Shown piece by piece: positions 29,215 to 43,459 of a stretch of 64,000 bases of DNA (positions are counted from its first letter, which is position 1; the number at the start of each line of letters is the position of its first letter). The notes beneath the pieces are model-generated. The model had not been told where the DNA came from. It saw only the letters and a list, made by a program, of their open reading frames with translations, and searched no databases. The translations under genes and the position numbers were made by a program. This stretch comes from a bacterium (lineage in GTDB: Bacteria > Patescibacteriota > Minisyncoccia > 2-02-FULL-40-12 > IGHO2-01-FULL-4-A): assembly GCA_030698885.1 (NCBI GenBank), contig JAUYLN010000019.1, positions 1-64,000 of the forward strand. The letters run 5' to 3'.

Positions 29215-30405
29215 TTATCTGACTATCAATTTTTTTTCGGTTTCATCTCGAAGATGCTTCAGCCACGAGACCGGGGCCTTGCTTGTGCCGTCGGGATCGC
29301 CTAGGCTGGCAACATATTCCTGGGCTAGGCGTCCGTGAGCATCACGCCAGTCAATAACCGCCCGAACCAGCGAATTATAAACCTCATCCAATGCTTTGTT
29401 ATTTTTATCAAGAACGAATTCTCTGACCCTGGATTTGTCGGCTATTTCCAAAAAGGCCTGAAAATTTGATTGCATATGTTTTCTCATTTTTGGAAAATAC
29501 GGGTCTCGGTGCTTAATGCCAAGAATGGCAAGTCTGAAATGCTGAAAAGGCGACTGGCCTCCAGTTTCACCTAAAATCTCTCGACCCTGCCAGGCGGGCA
29601 CATCCTCAAAAGTCACGTTGCGAGGAAATGAGAAAAACATGCGCACCTGATTGAAATAAAAATCGGCGCGACATCTCTCGCGAACCCGATTTAAAGAACG
29701 GACAACTTCCATATTCGGTGTGATAGCTTGAGCAAGAACATCTGCCATGGCCTTCGCCGAAAAAGCCGGGACATGGCTCAACATGGCGGCCATTAGCATA
29801 GGATTGATAGCCGGCGCAAAAGTAACCTCAACGTCATTGTGAGTTCCGACAAACCAATGTTCGTCTTCACATGCAGTATAAGAAAAACGCATCCTGACAT
29901 TGTCTACCGTTATGGGCTTGCTAGGTTTAGTCCGTCTATAATTCCATAGGCCGTAAAAGCAATAGGAGGCCGAGGGCTCAACGCCGGTAATCAAATGCAG
30001 CTCATACAAAGGCAATGCCAATTTTTTATCAAGAAGCTTTGGGCTCTCATCCTGTTTCAACTCTTCAACTGTTTTATAGCCAAGCTTCTCGAGCAAATAC
30101 GCATGAGTAATCATGGTCAGAGAAAGCATAAGATTGTTTGCGGCAGGCCAGCTTAAATTCTCAAAGAATCCGTAATTAAACTCGGGGAGTCTACTTACCG
30201 CTTTGGCTACGCTTTTATTCTTAATACGCAACGGCAAATTGCCGGCAACCAAATTAATATCTCTGGCGTATTCAAAAAAACCATCCGGCCCGCCATAAAC
30301 CATATCATATGAGAATTGACTCTCTTCTATAAGAAATCCTGTCCTTGGAGAAACTCCAAGCGATAGCATTACCGACTCTGCCTGCATAGAATCTTCTATT
30401 GGCAT
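29215..30405 (-). CDS. Indoleamine 2,3-dioxygenase (IDO) family heme protein
   Basis: The protein has 396 residues from the ATG at 30405, which has AAGGAG about ten bases upstream; a TTG at 30432 adds nine. It aligns by eye with animal and bacterial IDO: LSWPAANNLML (about residue 85), ALPLYELHLITGVEPSASYC, LWNYRRTKPSKPIT, TGGQSPFQHFRLAILGI, KMRKHMQSNFQAFLEI and SRVREFVLD. The proximal heme histidine of the family (YH in human IDO1) corresponds to His357 in WRDAHGRLAQ. IDO enzymes oxidatively cleave tryptophan to N-formylkynurenine. This is unexpected in a reduced CPR genome; substrate is not certain, since bacterial homologues may act on other indoles. It is divergent from the DUF167 gene. 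Confidence 0.8.
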   Translation of the reverse strand: MPIEDSMQAESVMLSLGVSPRTGFLIEESQFSYDMVYGGPDGFFEYARDINLVAGNLPLRIKNKSVAKAVSRLPEFNYGFFENLSWPAANNLMLSLTMITHAYLLEKLGYKTVEELKQDESPKLLDKKLALPLYELHLITGVEPSASYCFYGLWNYRRTKPSKPITVDNVRMRFSYTACEDEHWFVGTHNDVEVTFAPAINPMLMAAMLSHVPAFSAKAMADVLAQAITPNMEVVRSLNRVRERCRADFYFNQVRMFFSFPRNVTFEDVPAWQGREILGETGGQSPFQHFRLAILGIKHRDPYFPKMRKHMQSNFQAFLEIADKSRVREFVLDKNNKALDEVYNSLVRAVIDWRDAHGRLAQEYVASLGDPDGTSKAPVSWLKHLRDETEKKLIVR

Positions 30406-30518
30406 GCCTGTTAATCTCCTTATGGGTTGCAAAAGTGCTTGGGTCAGATTAGCATTTTAGTAATGAAACTTCAATATATAAAAATTAAGCCCGGTAGTGA
30501 AAATTTTGATAGGTTTTA

Positions 30519-31771: not shown

Positions 31772-32110
31772 ATGCTTTCCGACAAACATTGTGTCCCGTG
31801 CGAAGGAGGTGCCAAGCCTCTTTCGGGCGATAAACTGGATGAATACTTAAAACAAGTCAAAGACTGGGAGACTTTAGATTCCAGCAGAAAAATTACCAAG
31901 CATTTTGAATTTAAAGATTTCAAAGAAGCAATGGATTTTATCGGCAAAGTCGCTGATATTGCCGAATCCGAAGGCCATCATCCCGATATTCATATTTTCT
32001 ACAATAAAGTTCAGCTCGTGCTTTGGACCCACGCCATAAATGGCCTGTCTGAAAATGACTTCATCCTCGCCTCAAAAATAGATGTCGCCACTATTTTAAA
32101 AAATCAGTAA
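31772..32110 (+). CDS. phhB: 4a-hydroxytetrahydrobiopterin dehydratase (PCD/DCoH family)
   Basis: The 112-residue protein starts MLSDKHCVPCEGG and contains the PCD motif ESEGHHPDIHIFYNKV (about 66-81, with the conserved HHPD) and the WTHAINGLSENDF segment. PCD dehydrates the 4a-carbinolamine formed by aromatic amino acid hydroxylases, regenerating quinonoid dihydrobiopterin. No hydroxylase is visible in this window, so it may act in another pterin or molybdopterin-related route. The start follows the right arm of octad element E. Confidence 0.9.
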   Translation: MLSDKHCVPCEGGAKPLSGDKLDEYLKQVKDWETLDSSRKITKHFEFKDFKEAMDFIGKVADIAESEGHHPDIHIFYNKVQLVLWTHAINGLSENDFILASKIDVATILKNQ

Positions 32111-33008: not shown

Positions 33009-33014
33009 TATAAT
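33009..33014 (+). promoter_or_regulatory. -10 box of a probably leaderless promoter for the ThiF-like gene
   Basis: TATAAT at 33009-33014 lies eight bases before the ATG at 33023, so transcription should begin at or next to the A of the start codon. There is no Shine-Dalgarno sequence. The -35 region overlaps the preceding terminator (TTGTTT near 32988). Confidence 0.6.
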
Positions 33015-33022
33015 TATGACCT

Positions 33023-34153
33023 ATGAGCGCAAAAAAATCAGAGGAAGAAAAAATAAAGAAACCCGCACTGCTTAAAGACGAAAAAAAAATACCGAAAGGC
33101 ATATTAAAAATTGATGCATTTGAAAATGGATTAAAAGAATTATTTTTCATAAGAAATCCTCATCTTAAAAAAGAAATGCCGGAAGCCAAAGAACCGCTTG
33201 AAAAATTCTTAAAAAATTCCGGAATTAAACCTGTTTGGGCCTATTATCCCTGGCGCAATTTAGCAATAAAAATACTGCCTGAAAATTTGTATTTTGAATT
33301 AAGAACTGCCAGAAACAAAAATATCATTTCGTCTGAAGAACAAAAAAATTACCGGCAATTAAAGGTGGGTGTCGCCGGACTTTCGGTAGGCTCTGCCATA
33401 GTTCACGCCATAACCCTAAGCGGAGGACCAAAAACCTTAAAGATAGCAGATTTTGATACCCTGGAAGTCTCTAACCTTAATCGAATAAAAGCAAAGTTGA
33501 CCGATTTCGGACAAAATAAAACCCACATTGCAGCGCATGAAGTCTGGGAGCTTGACCCATTTGCCGATGTTCATGTCTGGGATAAGGGCATAACCAAAGA
33601 TACCTTAGAAAAATTTATACTTGGTAAGCCCGGACTTGATGTTTTTATAGATGAAATGGATAGCCTGGACCTTAAAATTGCCGCTCGGATAATTTGCAGG
33701 AAAAACAAAATACCTGTTTTAATGGCCACCGATAATGGCGATGGAATAATATTGGATGTTGAAAGATTTGAACTGGAGCCAAAAAGAAAAATATTTCACG
33801 GCCTGATTGGAAATATAGAAAAAGAAGGCCTGGCCAATATGGATTTCAGAAAGTGGCTACAGTTGGCCACAAAAATAGTAGGCCCGGAATATCTGACCGA
33901 AAAAATGCAGGATTCAATTGCTAATATAGGCCGGGCAATCGCTGCCGTACCTCAGCTCGGAACTTCGGCCGCCATGGCCGGCTCTGCTATGAATTATGTG
34001 TTGAGAAGAATAGCCAATAGTCAAAAAATGCCTTCAGGCAGATATATTGTAAGCCTGGAAGAAAAACTTGAACCGGGATTTTCTACTGCTTCAAGCATAA
34101 AAAAGCGGATGGCAAAAACCAGAGAATTTATTAGTAAATTTAACCGAAAATAA
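33023..34153 (+). CDS. E1-like/ThiF-family adenylyltransferase
   Basis: The 376-residue protein has an N-terminal extension (1-115), then the ThiF/E1 Rossmann core. KVGVAGLSVGSAIVHAI (about 114-130) is a variant of the glycine-rich ATP site (usual G-x-G-x-x-G). IADFDTLEVSNLNRI (about 142-156) matches the family's D(x)D...NLNR motif, and VFIDEMDSLDLK lies at about 211-222. No catalytic Cys of the ubiquitin-E1 type or CxxC zinc motif is evident. E1-like proteins adenylate C-termini or small carboxylates. ThiF fused to nitroreductase occurs in actinobacterial MoeY-like proteins (Rv1355c), and here a nitroreductase lies three genes downstream, so the two may be split partners. Confidence 0.8.
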   Translation: MSAKKSEEEKIKKPALLKDEKKIPKGILKIDAFENGLKELFFIRNPHLKKEMPEAKEPLEKFLKNSGIKPVWAYYPWRNLAIKILPENLYFELRTARNKNIISSEEQKNYRQLKVGVAGLSVGSAIVHAITLSGGPKTLKIADFDTLEVSNLNRIKAKLTDFGQNKTHIAAHEVWELDPFADVHVWDKGITKDTLEKFILGKPGLDVFIDEMDSLDLKIAARIICRKNKIPVLMATDNGDGIILDVERFELEPKRKIFHGLIGNIEKEGLANMDFRKWLQLATKIVGPEYLTEKMQDSIANIGRAIAAVPQLGTSAAMAGSAMNYVLRRIANSQKMPSGRYIVSLEEKLEPGFSTASSIKKRMAKTREFISKFNRK

Positions 34154-34154
34154 G

Positions 34155-34232
34155 TCCCGCACCTTTTGCGGAATGGTTCTCGGCCCAATAAGGCCGAGAC
34201 AAAAATCCAGAGATTCCACAAAAGATGCGGGA
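34155..34232. terminator. Nested long hairpin between ThiF-like and ligase-like genes
   Basis: Outer arms TCCCGCACCTTTTGCGGAAT (34155-34174) and ATTCCACAAAAGATGCGGGA (34213-34232) are nearly complementary. They enclose a second perfect stem TCTCGGCC/GGCCGAGA (34178-34185 and 34192-34199). There is no long T-run, so it may be an attenuator or structured regulatory RNA rather than a simple terminator. Confidence 0.6.
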
Positions 34233-34263
34233 TAAATAAAAATCATTTTTGTCATTAGCGTAC

Positions 34264-35688
34264 ATGCCTAAGTTTGACCCTATAAAACTTTTTAAATTCG
34301 CACAGAGCCACATACCGGCCTATCAAAAGCTCTTGCGCAAAAACAAAATAAATCCCGCCCAAATAAAAACCTTGGGCGATTTTTTATATCTGCCTATCAC
34401 CGAAAAAAAATCTTACATCTACAAAAATAAAACGTCCGACCTGTTTTCCATGAATACTCCGCCCATGATATATGCCAGCTCGGGTTCATCAGGCAAGCCG
34501 ACTTTTTGGTTCAGGGGCGACAAACAAGAACTACACGGCGCCGACCTGCATGAAAGAATATTTTCAAAAATATTTGGAATTAAAAAAAGTGACAAAACCC
34601 TGGTTGTGATTTGTTTTTCCATGGGCGTTTGGATAGCCGGTAATTTTACTCTGGCCTGCTGTAGAGAATTATCGCGCCGAGGATATAATATATCCGTGGT
34701 TTCACCCGGCGTTGAGATGGAGGATATTATGTCTTCATTATCCAATATCGCCCCGTTATTTAAAAAAGTTGTCCTGGCGGGATATCCTCCTTTTTTAATG
34801 AACGTAGCGGTGGAAGCCAGAAAAAGAAAAATTAAATTAGCTCCGGATATCAAAGCCATAACCGCCGGCGATAAATTCAGTGAAACCTGGCGCAATGATT
34901 TTCTTGCTACTCTTGGCATAAAGAACAAAACATCAATTGTTAGCATCTACGGCTCCGCCGATGCCGGCCCCATGGCTCACGAGACACCGTTATCAATATT
35001 TTTAAGAAATGAATCATTGAAAAATAAAAAACTTTATAATGAATTGTTTGGCGATGCAAAAACTCTGCCGGGACTTGTTCAATATGATTCCGGCCAAATA
35101 TTTTTTGAGGAAATAGACGGCGAGCTCGTATTAACGGCAGACACCGCCATCCCGCTTATCCGATACAATATTCATGATACGGGCAGGATAATTCATTTTA
35201 AAGAAATTAAAAAAATAATTAGCAGGGCCGGCTTAACTGATAAAATCTCACGGCTCGGATTAAGCAATTGGCAAATGCCGTTCTTAACATTAAAAGGCCG
35301 TACCGATGTTGCAGTAACTTTTTATGCCATAAATATTTTTCCGGAAAATATTTCCTCGGCAATAAAAAATAAAAATGTCTCAGGGTTGCTCACCGGTAAT
35401 TATAGGGCTTATAATACAACCGCCGGCAAAAGCAGGTTTCAAAAATTAATAATTGAGCTTGAACCGGCCGGAGAAATAAAAAATCACGCAAAAACAGCCG
35501 GACTAATTTCTAAAACCGTTCATTCCGAATTGGTCAGGTCAAGCATAGAATTCCGAAAATTAAATGATATGCTAGGCGAAAAATCAATGCCGGTTATTTT
35601 ACTTAAAAAATTTGACGGCTCAAGCTCTAAACAAAAAAATGGTCCGACCTTAATAGCTCTAGCCGGCAAAAAACCAAGGCTAACATGA
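34264..35688 (+). CDS. Phenylacetate-CoA ligase-like AMP-forming adenylation enzyme
   Basis: The ATG at 34264 gives about 474 residues. The adenylate-forming P-loop YASSGSSGKPTFWFR (about 73-87) is present, with PaaK-like N-terminal helices (QSHIPAYQKLL) and YGSADAGPMAHE (about 227-238, the A5-type motif), LIRYNIHDTGRI (about 298-309, D of A7) and a C-terminal small domain with LKGRTDVAVTFYAINIFPE (about 341-359) like PaaK AMP-binding_C. It should activate a carboxylic acid as an acyl-adenylate, perhaps to CoA or a protein. The last four bases overlap the next gene (ATGA), so it is co-translated with the MIO lyase, whose product could be its substrate (inference). Confidence 0.8.
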   Translation: MPKFDPIKLFKFAQSHIPAYQKLLRKNKINPAQIKTLGDFLYLPITEKKSYIYKNKTSDLFSMNTPPMIYASSGSSGKPTFWFRGDKQELHGADLHERIFSKIFGIKKSDKTLVVICFSMGVWIAGNFTLACCRELSRRGYNISVVSPGVEMEDIMSSLSNIAPLFKKVVLAGYPPFLMNVAVEARKRKIKLAPDIKAITAGDKFSETWRNDFLATLGIKNKTSIVSIYGSADAGPMAHETPLSIFLRNESLKNKKLYNELFGDAKTLPGLVQYDSGQIFFEEIDGELVLTADTAIPLIRYNIHDTGRIIHFKEIKKIISRAGLTDKISRLGLSNWQMPFLTLKGRTDVAVTFYAINIFPENISSAIKNKNVSGLLTGNYRAYNTTAGKSRFQKLIIELEPAGEIKNHAKTAGLISKTVHSELVRSSIEFRKLNDMLGEKSMPVILLKKFDGSSSKQKNGPTLIALAGKKPRLT

Positions 35689-37265
35689 ACCGTACCGAAA
35701 CAATCACAATAGGCAATGGGAAGCTTACAATAAATGATTGTGTCCAAATAGCCAGAAACGGCCGGCGAGTTGAGTTGGATAAAAATAGCTATTCTAAAAT
35801 AGAGAGATCTCTGGGGGTCTTAATGGATTTTTCAAAAAAACATATACCGGTTTACGGGCTAAGCACCCAGTTCGGAAATCAGGTAAATATGGTAGATGAA
35901 CGCTTAAATGAAATAGACCAGCCCCTTTATGTAAAATACCTGGATGAGCGCCAGATTAATCTGATAAAATCCCACTCAATTAGCATGGGGCCTGAGATAC
36001 CCGAGGAAATAATAGCCCTGACCATGGCCTTACGGGCTAATTGCTTAAGCCTTGGATATTCCGGCGTTAGAGTAGAAGCTATCCAATATATTTTAGATGT
36101 GGCAAATAAGGGGATTCATCCGGTTGTAAAAAAATACGGCTCCATAGGTGCAAGCGGCGACCTAATACCGCTTGCTCAAATAGCAGCGGCAATGATAGGC
36201 GAGGATGTTCCGGTAAATTTTCTGGGCAGAAAAATGTCAGCCCGCCGGGCATTTAAAACGGCAGGGATATTGCCCCTGATGCTAAGAGGCCGGGAGGGAT
36301 TGGCCATGATAAACGGCACTTCCCTAATGTCCGCAACAGCCACATTGGCCTTTTACGACCTTGATAAATTATTTTTCTGGATGCTATCTTCCATCGCCAT
36401 GGCCCTTGAATCAGCCTGTATCACCGACAGCCCCTATGCCCCGATAGTCCATAAAATAAAAAACCATAAAAGCCAGGAAGAGATAGCAAAATTCATGCGG
36501 CTGTTTTGGCAGGGAAGCAAATTGATAAGAAGCCTGGACAATACGAGACAGGAATTTATGGCCGCTAAAAACAGTAATGATTTGTCCGGTGTAAAAGGAC
36601 TTCAGGATTATTATTCTCTAAGATCGGTAGCCCAGGGATTTGGACCGTTCAAAGATAGCATGGCCATGTCAAAACAGTGGATAGAAGAAGAAATAAATTC
36701 GGTCAACGATAATCCGATTGTTGATTCTGCAACGGGCCAAATATATCACGGTGCTAATTTTATGGGCTACTACATTACTTCCGCGTGCGACCTCCTGAAA
36801 ACTGATATATCTCAAGCCTCAACATGGCTCCATGCTATTTTAGCTAACATGGTTCACCCCCGAAAAAATTTCGGCCTTCCTGCAAATCTTGTTGAAGAAC
36901 CGGCTGTCTATAGCGGATTCAGACCTATGCAAATACTGGCGGCATCACTAGCGGTTGAGAACAGAAAGCTTGCCCAGTCTCACCAGTCTCATTCTTTGCC
37001 GACGGAAGGAGACAATCAGGACGTTAACAGTCTCGGCACCCATGCAGCTTTTGACTTGAGAGAATCTGTGGCAAATCTTGAACGTTTAACGGCTATATTA
37101 ATGCTTGCCTCCTGCCAGTCTCTTGAACTGCGTGGCATACAAAATGCCGGTAATCATTCTCAGAAAATTTACAATATTATAAGAAAAGTAAGTCCGTCCG
37201 TAAAAAAAGACCGTTCAATGTCCGGCGACCTGGAGCGGATAATATCTCTCATCCGGCAATCGTAA
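35685..37265 (+). CDS. MIO-dependent aromatic amino acid ammonia-lyase/aminomutase (HAL/PAL family)
   Basis: The 526-residue protein has the MIO-forming tripeptide Ala156-Ser157-Gly158 in GSIGASGDLIPLAQIAA. The N-terminal loop is VYGLSTQFGNQ (about 58-68) where family members usually have YG-x-[NT]-TGFG, an odd substitution. SVNDNPIVD, FGLPANL and QSHQSHSLPTEGDNQDVNSLG (in part) match the HAL/PAL core. The substrate-selectivity position reads Ser-His (LIKSHSISMG), as in histidine ammonia-lyases rather than phenylalanine- or tyrosine-specific ones, but this does not prove specificity. No urocanase or other hut gene is adjacent. Coupled to the adenylating ligase gene, a biosynthetic rather than catabolic role is plausible. 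Confidence 0.88.
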   Translation: MNRTETITIGNGKLTINDCVQIARNGRRVELDKNSYSKIERSLGVLMDFSKKHIPVYGLSTQFGNQVNMVDERLNEIDQPLYVKYLDERQINLIKSHSISMGPEIPEEIIALTMALRANCLSLGYSGVRVEAIQYILDVANKGIHPVVKKYGSIGASGDLIPLAQIAAAMIGEDVPVNFLGRKMSARRAFKTAGILPLMLRGREGLAMINGTSLMSATATLAFYDLDKLFFWMLSSIAMALESACITDSPYAPIVHKIKNHKSQEEIAKFMRLFWQGSKLIRSLDNTRQEFMAAKNSNDLSGVKGLQDYYSLRSVAQGFGPFKDSMAMSKQWIEEEINSVNDNPIVDSATGQIYHGANFMGYYITSACDLLKTDISQASTWLHAILANMVHPRKNFGLPANLVEEPAVYSGFRPMQILAASLAVENRKLAQSHQSHSLPTEGDNQDVNSLGTHAAFDLRESVANLERLTAILMLASCQSLELRGIQNAGNHSQKIYNIIRKVSPSVKKDRSMSGDLERIISLIRQS

Positions 37266-37319
37266 ACACGTGGCCTTAAGGCCGTCTCCTTATCCATAAA
37301 CAGTCAGACTTTTTTGTTG

Positions 37320-37325
37320 TATAAT
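37320..37325 (+). promoter_or_regulatory. -10 box of a probably leaderless promoter for the nitroreductase gene
   Basis: TATAAT (37320-37325) is seven bases before the ATG (37333). As with the ThiF-like gene, the mRNA would start at or beside the start codon. Both ends of the cluster thus share the same promoter architecture. Confidence 0.55.
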
Positions 37326-37332
37326 AATAGTT

Positions 37333-38400
37333 ATGGATGTTACGAAGGAAGTCCTGCTTGAAATAATTAATGCGGGAATAAGAGCGCCATCAGGTGATAA
37401 CTCTCAGCCATGGCGATTTGAAATAGAAAAAGACGTTTTAGAACTCTATAATATCCCGGACAGGGACAACCCTTTTTATAATTTTAAACAAAGGGGTTCT
37501 TTGGTTGCTCATGGTGCACTAATTGAAAACATGACTACAACAGCTTCTCATTCAGGATATGAAATGAGGGCTGAACTTCACGCTAATGAACTCAAAGATA
37601 ATTTAGTAGCCAGGATAACTTTTCACCGTTCGGAACCAAAAAGCGAACTGCTCTATCCTTCTATATTCAAAAGGGCTACCAACAGAAAACCGTATAATTC
37701 AAAAATTGCCTTAACCGCTGAGCAGAAAACAATGCTTACTGAATCGGTTAAAAATATTCCCGATATTAATTTTACGCTTACCGAATCCTCTGAAGATAAA
37801 AAAGAGATAGGCACCGCTGTAAGCACCAACGAAATAGTAGCCCTTGAAACGGAAAAATTGCATAACATTTTTTTCTCAGATATTGTCTGGACCGAAAAAG
37901 AAGAGAAAGAAAAAAGAAAAGGCCTTTATATTAAAACATTGGAACTGCCTCCGCCTATACAATTACTATTTAGAGGACTTAAGCACTGGAAATTTAATAA
38001 TGCCCTAAATAAAATTGGTTTTGCCAAAGGAGCGGCAAAAGGAAATGCCCAAATTTATTCATCCGGTTCAGCTATTGGAATTATCACTATTAAAGAACGG
38101 ACAGGAAACAATTTTGTGAATGCCGGGCGGGCGATGGAAAGACTTTGGCTTGCTTCAGAATACTTAGGTTTAAGTTTTCAGCCGATAGCAGGAATGCTTT
38201 TTTTGGCACAAAGAATTGACGAGAATGAGGCTGATTCGTTTAATACTGGCCATCAGGCAATAATCTCTGATGCTTATAAAAAAATTGAAAATATATTTTC
38301 AACAAAGGGAAAAACTATTTCCATGCTTTTTAGAATTGGCCACGCAGAAAAACCGAGTGCTTATTCTTCCAGACTCGCACCAATAATTAAATATACATGA
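37333..38400 (+). CDS. Nitroreductase-family flavoprotein
   Basis: The 355-residue protein begins with the FMN-binding nitroreductase pattern AGIRAPSGDNSQPWRFEIE (about 13-31). A C-terminal region VNAGRAMERLWLASEYLGLSF (in part) is the second conserved block. It is longer than simple nitroreductases (about 200 residues) and resembles the C-terminal half of ThiF-nitroreductase fusions such as MoeY. It probably performs a flavin-dependent oxidation or reduction. Its TGA overlaps the ATG of a histidine kinase gene (ATGA), so the two are co-translated. Confidence 0.8.
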   Translation: MDVTKEVLLEIINAGIRAPSGDNSQPWRFEIEKDVLELYNIPDRDNPFYNFKQRGSLVAHGALIENMTTTASHSGYEMRAELHANELKDNLVARITFHRSEPKSELLYPSIFKRATNRKPYNSKIALTAEQKTMLTESVKNIPDINFTLTESSEDKKEIGTAVSTNEIVALETEKLHNIFFSDIVWTEKEEKEKRKGLYIKTLELPPPIQLLFRGLKHWKFNNALNKIGFAKGAAKGNAQIYSSGSAIGIITIKERTGNNFVNAGRAMERLWLASEYLGLSFQPIAGMLFLAQRIDENEADSFNTGHQAIISDAYKKIENIFSTKGKTISMLFRIGHAEKPSAYSSRLAPIIKYT

Positions 38401-40019
38401 GTTATTTAGATGCCTTTCGAAATTTAGACCTCCTTTCTGTCGGCGTAACCGTGGCGGCCATATTTATACTTGGCATCACCGTGTTTTTTAATAACCAAAA
38501 AAGCATCACCAATAAAGCCTTCCTTTTCTTCTCTATGGCTACTGTTTTTTACGGCACGGTTAATTACGCTGTATATCATGTATCTTCTCCGGTCGTGAGC
38601 CTCTTTCTGCTTAGGGCAACGTTATTTTTTGCGGTATGGCACGCTTTCTCGTTTTTCCTCCTGTTCTATGTATTTCCTGAAGAATCTGCCGTTGTGTCTC
38701 CTATACACAAATTTATCACCTCATCTATAACCGGAGCAGTTTCATTGCTGACGCTGACTCCGGCCGTACTTAGCGGAATTAAAGAACTGTCTCCGGAAGG
38801 GGTAATATTAAAAGCAGATAACGGACCCGGCATTGCTGTTTTCGGCGTCTGGGTTTTATATCTTGTCATAAGCGGGATATATTTCCTTGTCAAAAAAATG
38901 ATAATGGCAAATGAAAGGCGCAAGAAGCAATTTAAGCAGGTAGCTATAGGCACAGTAATAACTTTTTCCCTTCTGATAGTGTTTAATTTCATATTCCCGG
39001 CCCTCCTTGATAACTCAGGGTATGTTCCTCTCGGCGCCCTGTTCATGTTTCCTTTTATAGGATTTACATTCTATGCCATAGCCCGCCATGGCATGCTTGA
39101 TATAAAAGTCATCGGAACGGAAATAATCACTGCTGTTCTTGCTATCGTAGTTCTGCTGGATGTGATAGTTGCCGAAGATACGGCCACCTTAATATTAAGG
39201 GTTGGAGTTTTTATTTTAGTTTTGGGATTTGGAGCATTACTCATTAAAAGTGTTCTAAACGAGGTACGCCAGCGCGAAAAGCTTGAGATTCTTACTGAAG
39301 ACCTTGAGGCAAGCAATAAAAAACTACAGGAGCTGGATAAATTAAAGTCGGAGTTCTTATCGTTTGCATCCCATCAAGTCAAGGCGCCTATGTCTATCGT
39401 GAAGGGCTATGCCGATTTGATTGCAGGCGGCAGCTACGGGCAAATACCGGACAAAGTAAAAGAGACTGCTGAAAAAATAAAATCATCTGTAGACAAGCTG
39501 ATATTCCTTGTTAACGACTTCTTGGATTTAAGAAAAATAGAGGAGGGCAAAATGCAGTATGATTTTGAAAAGGCTGACGTCGTAGACATTGTAAAAGAGG
39601 TAAGTGAGGGTACAAAAACTTTAGCCGACATAAAAGATATTGAGCTTAGCTTTGAGGCAACGGCTCCGGCTATTGAGGCTACGATAGATGTTCAAAAATT
39701 CAGGCAGGTCATACAAAACCTTGTTGAGAATGCGGTTAAGTACACCCTGAAGGGATGGGTAAAGGTAACCGTTTCTCAACAAAATAATTTTGCCGTTATA
39801 ACAGTTTCCGACTCGGGCCTTGGCATGCCCGGGGATTTGATACCGACACTTTTTGAACAGTTCCACAGAGGTCAAAGTGATAAAAAAATAAGAGGGACCG
39901 GCCTGGGCCTTTATATCGCCAAACAGATAATAGACGCACACCATGGCACAATAAAGGCCACGTCAGAAGGCGACGATAAAGGCAGTACATTTATCGTTGA
40001 AATTCCGCTAAATTCATAG
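38397..40019 (+). CDS. Membrane sensor histidine kinase (7TM-HisKA-HATPase)
   Basis: The 540-residue protein has about eight hydrophobic helices in residues 1-290 (7TM-type histidine-kinase N-terminus). A coiled linker follows, then a HisKA domain with phosphoacceptor His326 (FASHQVKAPMSIVKGY), and a HATPase_c domain with N box NLVENAVKYT, G1 DSGLGMP and G2 RGTGLGLYIAKQI. It overlaps the nitroreductase gene by four bases and is followed by two receiver-domain proteins. One is fused to the pilus ATPase, so it probably controls type IV pilus motors or expression (inference). Confidence 0.92.
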   Translation: MSYLDAFRNLDLLSVGVTVAAIFILGITVFFNNQKSITNKAFLFFSMATVFYGTVNYAVYHVSSPVVSLFLLRATLFFAVWHAFSFFLLFYVFPEESAVVSPIHKFITSSITGAVSLLTLTPAVLSGIKELSPEGVILKADNGPGIAVFGVWVLYLVISGIYFLVKKMIMANERRKKQFKQVAIGTVITFSLLIVFNFIFPALLDNSGYVPLGALFMFPFIGFTFYAIARHGMLDIKVIGTEIITAVLAIVVLLDVIVAEDTATLILRVGVFILVLGFGALLIKSVLNEVRQREKLEILTEDLEASNKKLQELDKLKSEFLSFASHQVKAPMSIVKGYADLIAGGSYGQIPDKVKETAEKIKSSVDKLIFLVNDFLDLRKIEEGKMQYDFEKADVVDIVKEVSEGTKTLADIKDIELSFEATAPAIEATIDVQKFRQVIQNLVENAVKYTLKGWVKVTVSQQNNFAVITVSDSGLGMPGDLIPTLFEQFHRGQSDKKIRGTGLGLYIAKQIIDAHHGTIKATSEGDDKGSTFIVEIPLNS

Positions 40020-40031
40020 GATGGCAGGATT

Positions 40032-40466
40032 ATGATATACTTAAAGCAAATGGAAGATGCCAAAATTTTTACAATTCTCATGGTTGATGATGAAAAAGAT
40101 TTTAGAGACATCGTATCAACCAAGCTAAAAACCCTAGGAATTAATGTTATTGAGGCCGAAAACGGCCAAGAGGGCTTAAAGAAATTAAAAGAGGTAAAAC
40201 CCGACCTGCTGCTTTTGGATGTAAATATGCCCGTAATGAACGGAATAGAAACTTTGTCTACTATCAGAAAAGATCCGGAATTAAATGAGCTTAAAATTAT
40301 CTTACTTACAAATTACGGCGACCCTCAAAAAGAAGCGGCATGGCAAGATGAAAGACTGGCAAGAGAAGCAGGGGCCATGGACTACATAAGAAAAACTGAT
40401 GACCTGGATACTATAGCAAGCCAGGTCATATCGGTCCTCAGGGGCCATGAAAGCCCTGGTAAATAG
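40032..40466 (+). CDS. Single-domain response regulator
   Basis: The 144-residue receiver domain has the acid pair Asp19-Asp20 (MVDDEKDF), the phosphoacceptor Asp63 (LLLLDVNMPVMNG) and the conserved Thr/Lys (LLTNYGD; DYIRKTD). There is no output domain, so it is CheY/Spo0F-like. Start 40032 has AGGA nearby; an ATG at 40050 would give 138 residues. It probably takes phosphate from the adjacent kinase. Confidence 0.88.
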   Translation: MIYLKQMEDAKIFTILMVDDEKDFRDIVSTKLKTLGINVIEAENGQEGLKKLKEVKPDLLLLDVNMPVMNGIETLSTIRKDPELNELKIILLTNYGDPQKEAAWQDERLAREAGAMDYIRKTDDLDTIASQVISVLRGHESPGK

Positions 40467-40508: not shown

Positions 40509-42203
40509 ATGAAAGCGTTAATTTTAGACGATAATCCGTTTATGATAGAAATATTGGCCGATAAACTTAAGTCGGAAGGTTTTGAGGTGCTAAAGGCCCT
40601 AAACAGTAAAGATGGTATTGCACAGGCAGAAAAAGAATCTCCCGATGTGATTGCTATGGATTTGCCGTTACCGGATGATTCCGGAGGCCTAAATACTCTT
40701 AAGCAATTAAAAGAGGGCGCAAAAACTAAAGATACCCCGATAATAGTACTCTCCAATGACGACACCGACCAATACAAGGAGAAAGTAGTGGGTATGGGCG
40801 TCAACGGCTACCTAATAAAACCCTATACGAACGCGGAAGAAATAGTTGCGACGATTCTTCAATTCAGTAAAAACAAAGACGCGGCACCTGTCATTAAGGA
40901 TGCCGAAAAAAAAGACGGGGATAGCGCAATGAAATATGATAGTCCATTCACAAAATCTACCGTAAATATTGGCGTACCTCCGAAAATTAAAGCCCGGGTA
41001 GAAAAAGCCCTGGTCTCTCCGCGCGAAGAACTTTCTATAATCAACTTGGTTGGTGATTTAGTGGAATATGCTTTTCATGCCCGCGCATCTGACATACATC
41101 TGGAGCCATATAGCGACCGGATGCTGGTGAGGATGAGGATAGACGGCATACTCTATGATGTTTTTACTTTACCGAAAAACACCCACTCCGAAGTTATTGC
41201 CAGAATAAAAGTTCTGGCCGGCATGAGAACAGATGAACACCAGACTGCCCAGGACGGAAGATTCAAAACCGCCATCAAGGACCCGCCGAGACAATTTGAT
41301 ATCAGGGTTTCAATGGTGCCGACTTATTATGGTGAGAATTCTGTCTTAAGATTGCTTGCTGAACAGTCAACGGTCAAAAAGGTAGACGACTTGGCTTTCA
41401 CAAAAGAAGATAAAGAAAAAATACACAGAGCAATAAAAAAACCCTATGGCATGATTTTGGCCACCGGTCCGACCGGTTCAGGCAAATCAACAACTCTTTA
41501 TACAATAATAAGAGAATTGAATAGCCGGGATGTTTCTATAATTACCATAGAAGACCCGGTTGAATACTCTATAGAAGGAATAGACCAGATCCAGGTGAAC
41601 ACCAGGACCGGCCTTACTTTTGCAAATGGCTTACGCTCAATTTTGAGACAGGACCCGAATGTTATTATGGTCGGCGAAATTCGCGATAAAGAAACAGCAT
41701 CTATCGCAGTTAACGCCGCACTAACCGGCCACAAACTTTTATCCACCCTGCATACAAATGACGCGGCTACTACTCTGCCGAGGCTTTTGGATATGGACGT
41801 GGAACCATTTTTGATCGCTTCCACGGTTAACATAGTCATCGGGCAAAGGCTAGTTAGAATGCTCTGTCAGCACTGCAAGCAAAAAAGAAAATTCAGTAAA
41901 GAAGAAGTTGGTGTTTTAAGCAAAAGCATTCCTGCTACCCTCCTTAAAGACAACATTGAGTTCTATGAGCCCAAGGGATGTTCTACCTGTGGAGACATGG
42001 GATATTTTGACAGGATGGGTATATACGAAATATTGGAGATGAGCGACGACTTAAGGCCTGCCATCTTGAGGCGAGCCGATGCCTCGGAAATAAGAGACAT
42101 AGCCGTTAAAAATGGCATGACCACTCTTATGGAAGATGGGTTTAGAAAAGCGGTTGCCGGATTAACCTCCATAGAAGAAATATTGCGTGCAGTAAAAGAA
42201 TAA
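40509..42203 (+). CDS. pilB: Receiver domain fused to type IV pilus assembly ATPase (PilB/GspE)
   Basis: The 564-residue protein has an N-terminal response-regulator receiver domain (about 1-120, Asp7-Asp8 and phosphoacceptor Asp51 in IAMDLPLPDD). It is joined by a linker to a GspE/PilB ATPase: SDIHLEPYSDRMLVRMRIDG (about 197-216), Walker A GPTGSGKST (about 320-328), Asp box TIEDPVEY, Walker B VMVGEIRDKET (about 386) and a tetracysteine zinc motif CQHCKQ/CSTCGD (about 455-495). The receiver replaces the usual GSPII_E N-terminal domain. PilB drives pilus extension; the fusion suggests direct phospho-control of the motor by the preceding histidine kinase. Confidence 0.9.
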   Translation: MKALILDDNPFMIEILADKLKSEGFEVLKALNSKDGIAQAEKESPDVIAMDLPLPDDSGGLNTLKQLKEGAKTKDTPIIVLSNDDTDQYKEKVVGMGVNGYLIKPYTNAEEIVATILQFSKNKDAAPVIKDAEKKDGDSAMKYDSPFTKSTVNIGVPPKIKARVEKALVSPREELSIINLVGDLVEYAFHARASDIHLEPYSDRMLVRMRIDGILYDVFTLPKNTHSEVIARIKVLAGMRTDEHQTAQDGRFKTAIKDPPRQFDIRVSMVPTYYGENSVLRLLAEQSTVKKVDDLAFTKEDKEKIHRAIKKPYGMILATGPTGSGKSTTLYTIIRELNSRDVSIITIEDPVEYSIEGIDQIQVNTRTGLTFANGLRSILRQDPNVIMVGEIRDKETASIAVNAALTGHKLLSTLHTNDAATTLPRLLDMDVEPFLIASTVNIVIGQRLVRMLCQHCKQKRKFSKEEVGVLSKSIPATLLKDNIEFYEPKGCSTCGDMGYFDRMGIYEILEMSDDLRPAILRRADASEIRDIAVKNGMTTLMEDGFRKAVAGLTSIEEILRAVKE

Positions 42204-42208
42204 TAATC

Positions 42209-42375
42209 TACGAATTACCAATTTTATACTAATATACAAATTTATTTGTTTTACGGCTTCGCAGCCCGTATGGTTATACGTATAACGTCATACGTTTTAC
42301 CACGATACGGGCAGCGATTAACATAAAACGTATAACGGGTATCAGTATATTCGTGATTCTATTCGTAATTGGTAG
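42209..42375. repeat. Element L: heptad-repeat inverted element with internal ACGTATAACG hairpin
   Basis: Left units TACGAAT, TACCAAT, TTTATAC, TAATATA, CAAATTT and right units AGTATAT, TCGTGAT, TCTATTC, GTAATTG, GTAGATA have period 7 and are complementary. The inside contains CCCGTAT/ATACGGG and several CGTATAACG words. The right arm runs into the start region of the next gene, which has no canonical ATG there. Confidence 0.65.
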
Positions 42376-42382
42376 ATATAAA

Positions 42383-43459
42383 TTGGATCTCAAACTAAAT
42401 CTAAATAAATATCTTGTCCGTCTCTCCCTGAAAGAGAAGATGCTTTTTGCTAAGCATATGGCGATAATGACCGGCTCCGGAATGCAGATGCTTGAAAGCA
42501 TCCAGGTTTTAAGATCGCAAACAACATCAAAGTCGCTTCAAATAGTTTTAGACCAACTTATGGAAGATGTCCGTAATGGTCAATTTTTATCTACAAGCCT
42601 GGAGAGATACAAACATATATTCAACGATTTTTTCATCAACGTCATAAGGGTTGGCGAAGCCAGCGGCACGCTTTCGGACAATTTTAAATATCTGGCTGAC
42701 GAGTTAAAAAAACAACAGGAATTAAACAGAAAAATTAAGGGGGCAATGATTTATCCTATAATAATCGTCGTTGCTACCGTAGGAATAACTTCCTTAATGA
42801 CATTTTTCATATTTCCCAAAATATTGCCGGTGCTCAAAAGTATAAATGTTGAACTTCCGGCCACGACCAGAGGATTTATAAAGGTATCAGATTTTATGTT
42901 CAATTACGGCAGTTATGTCATAGGCGGATTTGTGGCATTCTTAATCGGCCTATGGTTTATCCTTAGAATAGGCAGGGTAAGATTTATTTGGCATAAAATA
43001 ATATTAAATTTGCCTCTGGTGAATAATATGTCCCGGGCAATCAACATGATAAAATTTTCAAGAACTTTGGCGCTTCTGCTTAAAAGCGACGTTAAAATAG
43101 TTGAATCTTTAAATATAACGGCGGACACTTTAACCAATTTAGTCTACAGGCAGGCCGTAAAAGAAACCGCAAACAGGGTTCAGATGGGAGATTTGATATC
43201 TAAATACCTGAAAGAAAATCCCCATCTATTTCCGACTTTGATGTCGCAGATGATTTCTGTGGGCGAGAATACGGGCAAACTGGATGAATCCGCTTTATAT
43301 CTGGCCGATTTTTATGAAGGGGAGTTGGACGAAACCACTAAGGCCCTTTCAAATGCTCTTGAGCCGATACTTTTGGTGGTAATGGGATTAATAGTGGGCT
43401 TCGTCGCCCTGGCTATCATCACTCCGATATACAAGATTACAGAAACACTGACGTTATAA
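42383..43459 (+). CDS. pilC: Type IV pilus inner-membrane protein PilC (GspF family)
   Basis: About 358 residues from a TTG at 42383; an alternative GTG at 42353 lies within the repeat arm and the first ATG is 42439. Two GspF repeats are visible (KEKMLFAKHMAIMTGSGMQM, about 15-34; SRTLALLLKSDVKIVESL, about 227-244) and three transmembrane helices, including a C-terminal VVMGLIVGFVALAIITPIY. PilC is the platform protein that PilB turns. The neighbouring pilB and prepilin genes confirm the role. The start is uncertain because the heptad repeat reaches it. Confidence 0.9.
   Translation: MDLKLNLNKYLVRLSLKEKMLFAKHMAIMTGSGMQMLESIQVLRSQTTSKSLQIVLDQLMEDVRNGQFLSTSLERYKHIFNDFFINVIRVGEASGTLSDNFKYLADELKKQQELNRKIKGAMIYPIIIVVATVGITSLMTFFIFPKILPVLKSINVELPATTRGFIKVSDFMFNYGSYVIGGFVAFLIGLWFILRIGRVRFIWHKIILNLPLVNNMSRAINMIKFSRTLALLLKSDVKIVESLNITADTLTNLVYRQAVKETANRVQMGDLISKYLKENPHLFPTLMSQMISVGENTGKLDESALYLADFYEGELDETTKALSNALEPILLVVMGLIVGFVALAIITPIYKITETLTL

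Follow-up and report, generated by a model that had tools for sequence, protein, structure and literature searches.

The oxazolone pathways TrzAS/TyzACB of Mycobacterium and Rhodococcus and OxzAB of Pseudoalteromonas combine a ThiF cyclase with a flavin oxidase of the nitroreductase family. Rv1355c, formerly called MoeY and now TrzS, is an oxazolone synthase (PMC12856293), and it was shown experimentally that its ThiF domain uses ATP to cyclise an N-acyl amino acid, while its flavin-dependent oxidase (FDO) domain carries out a desaturation with O2 (PMC12856293). The same oxazolone chemistry is performed by TyzBC (PMC10404671), and the role of bacterial oxazolones was called a major unresolved question in 2025 (PMC12856293). 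A gene cluster of this kind lies in the 64,000-nucleotide stretch of DNA analysed here (positions 1 to 64,000 of contig JAUYLN010000019.1, assembly GCA_030698885.1; hereafter the window), which comes from a member of Patescibacteria, the Candidate Phyla Radiation (CPR). Unlike the described pathways, its predicted synthase is encoded by two separate genes with a ligase gene and a lyase gene between them, the unit has no adjacent N-acyltransferase and its own genome no FeeM-family gene, and a seven-transmembrane (7TM) histidine kinase is included. The N-acyl dehydrotyrosine clusters (stieleriacine, kyonggic acid, and thalassotalic acid) also contain ThiF and nitroreductase genes, sometimes with a methyltransferase (PMC12479983); they differ from the window in obtaining the acyl group through the NasY acyltransferase, and no histidine kinase is mentioned for them (PMC12479983). 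We hold with moderate confidence that the cluster in the window serves to make an N-acyl-oxazolone-type autoinducer and to sense it with a co-encoded receptor kinase, with type IV pili as a possible output.

The two halves of the predicted oxazolone synthase are separate genes. The first, at 33023..34153 (+), encodes a ThiF/E1-like cyclase that resembles TyzB and the N-terminal half of TrzS/OxzB (PF00899, 8.7e-19; NF005901, 7.2e-94), and the second, at 37333..38400 (+), encodes a nitroreductase-superfamily FDO that resembles TyzC and the C-terminal half of TrzS (PF00881, 2.6e-9; NF005901, 5.6e-55; PRK14851, 5.8e-61). NF005901, the model of the Rv1355c family, is covered in its N-terminal half by the ThiF gene and in its C-terminal half by the nitroreductase gene, in agreement with the proposal of an earlier sequence-only reading that the two proteins correspond to one MoeY-like fusion. 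The curated cut-off of this model, 476 bits for the full-length fusion, is reached by neither protein (315 bits for ThiF and 187 bits for the nitroreductase), and neither could reach it because the gene is split in two here. The ThiF protein keeps the E1-type nucleotide motifs GLSVGS at 119, SNLNR at 150, and DEMD at 210; D213 in the last of these is invariant across 14 homologues and is likened to TrzS D217 by motif only. The closest PDB entry for the FDO is Acg (2YMV, 4.1e-23), as is the case for TrzS. No match to PF21926 or PF00765 (FeeM/LuxI) was found in the own genome, and no N-acyl amino acid synthase adjoins the cluster. By homology to TrzS and TyzBC, the ThiF protein would carry out the cyclisation and the FDO the desaturation, and the likely product of the pair is an oxazolone derived from an N-acyl amino acid. 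The aryl-CoA end product suggested earlier is thus not favoured, since Rv1355c is an oxazolone synthase. The gene set appears to operate in the manner of an oxazolone pathway with a receptor kinase attached; it can be called a TrzS-type operon only with qualification, because the fusion-model cut-off is not reached and an acyltransferase neighbour is missing.

The open reading frames (ORFs) of the ThiF-like protein, ligase, lyase, and nitroreductase lie in this order on the (+) strand, as had been described before, and the ligase and lyase genes share an ATGA overlap of 4 nt. The earlier four-gene set is made up of real members, but a fifth had been overlooked: the 7TM histidine kinase at 38397..40019 (+) (PF16927, weak; PF00512; PF02518), whose junction with the nitroreductase gene is an ATGA overlap of the same size. 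The common -10 element was also found to be real. An exact TATAAT stands at 33009..33014 (+), 14 nt before the ThiF ATG, which implies a near-leaderless start, and a second one at 37320..37325 (+), 13 nt before the nitroreductase ATG. Among the 46 ORFs of the window, only these two have the box at this spacing (8 of 1070 ATGs overall), so there are probably two transcription units, ThiF-ligase-lyase and nitroreductase-kinase, with one common promoter type. Because a receptor kinase belongs to the unit, its likely purpose shifts from natural-product synthesis to signalling.

The linkage of the kinase to the cluster was examined in an evenly drawn set of 380 Patescibacteria genomes. The ThiF gene is present in 47 of them, so that the gene set is conserved in ~12% of the sample, and its synteny across Patescibacteria supports the earlier reading as a biosynthetic cluster. 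The relatives' genomes are mostly metagenome-assembled and fragmentary, and their ORFs were called mechanically and greedily. A 7TM kinase was present within 4.3 kb of ThiF in 40 of the 47 ThiF-positive genomes, and in all 40 it lies downstream on the same strand. With a sensor model trained on 13 kinases chosen for adjoining the cluster, and with the training genomes G000 and G085 excluded, a kinase sensor of at least 200 bits was detected in 25/45 ThiF-positive genomes versus 2/333 others (Fisher 1e-24). In one of the two exceptions, G100, a ligase and a kinase gene stand side by side where the contig begins, the locus being cut by the contig end; in the other, G115, the gene of a LuxI/FeeM-like synthase precedes the kinase by 86 bp (PF00765, 43 bits against a cut-off of 24). 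Across 53 clusters, uncorrected ThiF distances correlate with those of the kinase sensor domain (Mantel 0.30, 0/2000; partial 0.335) but not with those of the kinase catalytic domain (Mantel -0.05), which tells against shared descent alone, because descent should affect the two domains of one protein alike. The structure model of the sensor (pLDDT 82) is helical with a beta hairpin. A fold like that of G-protein-coupled receptors is not claimed, the matches to 7TM receptors being weak (best E 2e-3, TM score <=0.55). As a small control, four other histidine kinases of the own genome were inspected, and they have neither a 7TM sensor match nor an obvious synthase upstream.

The same sensor family is also found behind other synthases. 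PF00765 gives six hits in the 380 genomes, of which four (G115, G211, G192, and G250) lie at most 0.9 kb upstream of a 7TM-family kinase on the same strand, an arrangement with a chance estimate of roughly 1e-14. Operons of LuxI/FeeM, ThiF, and 7TM kinase genes occur in G192, G211, and G219 and are, judged by gene content, the classical acyltransferase version of the predicted window pathway. In about 17 of 20 further, lower-scoring sensor loci, a biosynthetic enzyme is encoded immediately upstream of the 7TM kinase: a ligase, LuxI/FeeM with ThiF, a UbiA prenyltransferase (L198, L200, and L201), an acyl-ACP-reductase-like protein (L209, L210, and L212), a methyltransferase (three loci, L199 and L204 among them), an alpha-oxoamine synthase (L205), or KAS III (L206). 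The loci L193, L195, L203, and L177 of other CPR genomes, with LuxI/FeeM-like synthases directly upstream of 7TM kinases and, in three of the four, a ThiF gene, are putative autoinducer circuits. A synthase and a multi-transmembrane histidine kinase are encoded together across lineages; the ThiF loci of Bacteroidota also adjoin a 7TM kinase, which is of an unrelated type (7TMR-DISM). LuxM/AinS-LuxN, CqsA-CqsS, and LqsA-LqsS are pairs of an autoinducer synthase and a membrane histidine kinase, and the window resembles them in encoding a small-molecule synthase with a multi-transmembrane kinase. It differs in synthase chemistry and sensor family, and the CPR sensor family pairs with several synthase types.

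The remaining two genes could supply the acyl group. The ligase gene, 34264..35688 (+), starts at ATG 34264 (the mechanical ORF begins at TTG 34249) and encodes a PaaK-like acyl-adenylating enzyme with the motifs SSGSSGKP, YGSADA, and KGRTDV. It has no Pfam match, and its score with the PaaK model TIGR02155 (4.5e-14, 51.8 bits) does not reach the equivalog cut-off of 646; a profile match to the PDB PaaK 2Y4O (1.7e-15) and the closest fold, PaaK1 2Y27 (E 2e-21), place it in the PaaK superfamily. The lyase gene, 35685..37265 (+), encodes a member of the aromatic amino acid lyase/aminomutase family of the 4-methylideneimidazole-5-one (MIO) type (PF00221, 1.8e-134, 449 bits). Its Ala-Ser-Gly triad falls within 155-160, in agreement with membership of the MIO superfamily, and the closest PDB entry is the tyrosine aminomutase 2RJR (2.5e-64). 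GASGDL, YGLSTQFG, and YSLR, which comprise the MIO triad and the catalytic Tyr, are conserved across 12 cluster lyases. The own genome, 94.6% complete, has a single MIO lyase and a single ThiF-family gene.

In 95 relatives, the cluster genes recur together in varying order. A genome-wide scan yielded 72 CPR loci, with the ligase in 61, the flavin oxidase in 58, and the 7TM kinase in 54; a deaminase is present in 34, either an MIO lyase (11) or an ELFV amino-acid dehydrogenase (23). These two are mutually exclusive, and neither is found where the ligase is missing. The ligases group in sequence according to the type of deaminase (0/5000 permutations; nearest-neighbour agreement 0.97), as expected if the ligase activates the product of the deaminase, which supports the earlier idea of a lyase feeding an adenylating ligase. 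Between the MIO/ELFV label and the kinase sensor there is no global distance signal, only nearest-neighbour agreement. Other clusters contain an aminotransferase of class I (L041, L063, and L182) or class IV (L044). Outside CPR, the ThiF-FDO gene adjoins a FeeM-type acyltransferase in Paenibacillus (L102), and in Bacteroidota (L107, L118, and L119) a protein of 234-272 aa with no Pfam match occupies the acyltransferase position beside it. In CPR, a deaminase and a ligase appear to replace the N-acyltransferase, so that the acyl donor would be made from an amino acid. At L018, L019, and L020, in other CPR genomes, the partner of the MIO lyase is an AMP-binding ligase of another kind (in L018 a confirmed PF00501 match), and there is no ThiF or flavin oxidase. 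Alpha/beta-hydrolase-like genes were seen inside oxazolone clusters at L185:9480-10355, L186:8350-9234, and L182:8527-9261, and the encoded enzymes might break the signal down by hydrolysis or set the product free.

Alternatively, the cluster might make a metabolite for self-use, such as an aryl pigment, an antioxidant, or an envelope or copper-binding compound, with the kinase controlling this one pathway in response to stress or a precursor and not to the product. The lyase and ligase resemble the models of FlxA/FlxY (flexirubin) and BagA/BagE, and flexirubin and the bagremycin/ferroverdin pathways pair an aromatic ammonia-lyase with a PaaK-like ligase; the window proteins score far below the respective cut-offs, and those pathways are not known to include ThiF or FDO. 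Oxazolone genes are, moreover, tied to stress in Proteobacteria and Mycobacterium tuberculosis. However, genes for LuxI/FeeM, alpha-oxoamine synthase, UbiA, and KAS III precede kinases of this sensor family, ThiF co-varies with the sensor rather than with the kinase domain, and export or envelope genes do not recur in the neighbourhood, all of which makes self-use unlikely, though worth keeping in view.

The kinase is followed by genes that allow another explanation, namely that it belongs with its response regulator to a type IV pilus operon beside which the biosynthetic genes were merely inserted, so that the product would not be sensed. A single-domain response regulator (40032..40466 (+); PF00072, 1.3e-23), a PilB-type pilus ATPase with an N-terminal receiver domain (40509..42203 (+); PF00437, 3.6e-120; PF00072, 2.4e-21), and a PilC-type pilus membrane protein (42353..43459 (+); syntenic in L013, L014, L016, and L044) accompany the kinase both here and in roughly six relatives, and PilB and PilC could be its output. 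Against this, many clusters have no pilus genes nearby, and in L041, L043, L046, and L047 the kinase still follows the cluster. Four relatives have the same PilB-PilC operon with neither the ThiF cluster nor the kinase nor the response regulator, indicating that kinase and response regulator travel with the biosynthetic genes. The pilus-operon explanation is thereby largely refuted. The PilB receiver was also considered as a dedicated output and rejected, since its Asp is kept in relatives that lack the kinase.

It is similarly improbable, and perhaps slightly more so, that the locus serves ordinary amino-acid catabolism, with the lyase acting as a histidine ammonia-lyase (HAL) among incidental neighbours. 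The best-scoring named models for the lyase are indeed those of HAL (372 and 367 bits), but their cut-offs (524 and 539) are not reached, the active-site motif reads NQDVNSLG, and 12/12 cluster lyases have NQD in place of the NQED of HAL, on which grounds histidine catabolism was rejected; the conserved operon with ligase, ThiF, and FDO also argues against incidental neighbours. An E1-like protein-conjugation or anti-phage system, to which the ThiF domain's PADLOC E1-E2 matches, weak at 1.5e-7, might point, is scarcely credible given the far stronger match to Rv1355c, the lack of an E2, JAB, or ubiquitin-like partner, and the lack of any defence match for the ligase, lyase, and FDO.

For the self-made oxazolone signal, the following route can be proposed. 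The MIO lyase would produce an unsaturated acid by deaminating an aromatic amino acid. The PaaK-like ligase would adenylate this acid and link it, directly or via CoA, to a second amino acid at its amino group. This step would stand in for the LuxI/FeeM-type N-acyltransferases of other oxazolone pathways, and the co-variation of ligase and deaminase is in line with it. By analogy with TrzS and TyzBC, the ThiF-like enzyme would then use ATP to turn the N-acyl amino acid into an oxazolone (azlactone) by cyclisation, and the flavin-dependent oxidase would desaturate it. The resulting small ring, similar to an acyl-homoserine lactone, may be sensed by the co-encoded 7TM kinase, as linkage and co-variation suggest. 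In the weakest step, the kinase might signal via the adjacent response regulator, and perhaps the PilB receiver domain, to type IV pili. A wider and more specific scheme is put forward tentatively, at somewhat less than an even chance: Patescibacteria would hold 7TM receptor kinases each behind its own synthase (oxazolone, LuxI/FeeM, alpha-oxoamine synthase, prenyltransferase, or ketosynthase), and the window would encode an azlactone autoinducer made entirely from amino acids, with an aryl-acryloyl donor from the lyase and no acyltransferase, that switches type IV pili through a phosphorelay.

Several observations weigh against the proposal of an oxazolone signal sensed by the kinase. The closest folds of the ligase are CoA ligases, and the pathway could stop at acyl-CoA. 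There are ThiF-FDO loci that lack both the ligase and the kinase (G184, G244, and G224), distances of the sensor and the ligase do not correlate, and the sensor model owes its training to cluster-adjoining kinases, even with two training genomes left out of the test. The retention of the PilB receiver Asp in relatives without the kinase implies that a pilus output is not specific. Most CPR bacteria are thought to live without O2. TrzS and TyzC both require it (PMC12856293, PMC10404671), which is a serious difficulty if the bacterium is an anaerobe.

Some other features of the window lie outside the proposed system. An indoleamine 2,3-dioxygenase family protein, O2- and haem-dependent and unexpected in a CPR genome, is encoded at 29215-30432 (-) (PF01231, 1.9e-38); the gene is conserved beside TruB in the relative L013, and its presence hints that the lineage may meet O2. 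Pterin-4a-carbinolamine dehydratase, the usual partner of aromatic amino acid hydroxylases, is encoded upstream of the cluster at 31772-32110, and directly beside ThiF in L013. The closest relative lacks the upstream methyltransferase gene (32192), which is not counted in the system. The gap between ThiF and the ligase holds an imperfect palindrome of 83 nt at 34154..34236 (+) with an RNA fold z of -6.1, which is a dispersed repeat: a second copy of 80% identity lies at C6:71889-71964 of the own genome, and partial copies occur elsewhere in it. This hairpin was rejected as a riboswitch or attenuator, given its dispersed nature, the lack of an Rfam match, and its absence from the close relative L013, where the ThiF and ligase genes overlap.

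In the open-access literature searched, neither an oxazolone receptor nor a dedicated CPR quorum-sensing system or synthase has been reported. The presence of a co-directional receptor kinase in ~85% of the sampled CPR clusters offers a concrete, testable answer to the question of what oxazolones do, namely that they act as signals. The proposed route, in which the acyl donor is drawn from an amino acid, also points to a way for a cell with a reduced genome to produce a signal of the acyl-lactone kind. CPR bacteria are mostly uncultured episymbionts, and a five-gene cassette that E. coli can express would make their communication accessible to experiment. If the proposal is true, CPR bacteria would communicate from cell to cell in a way so far unreported for them, and oxazolones, a recently found class of compounds, would have a possible job.

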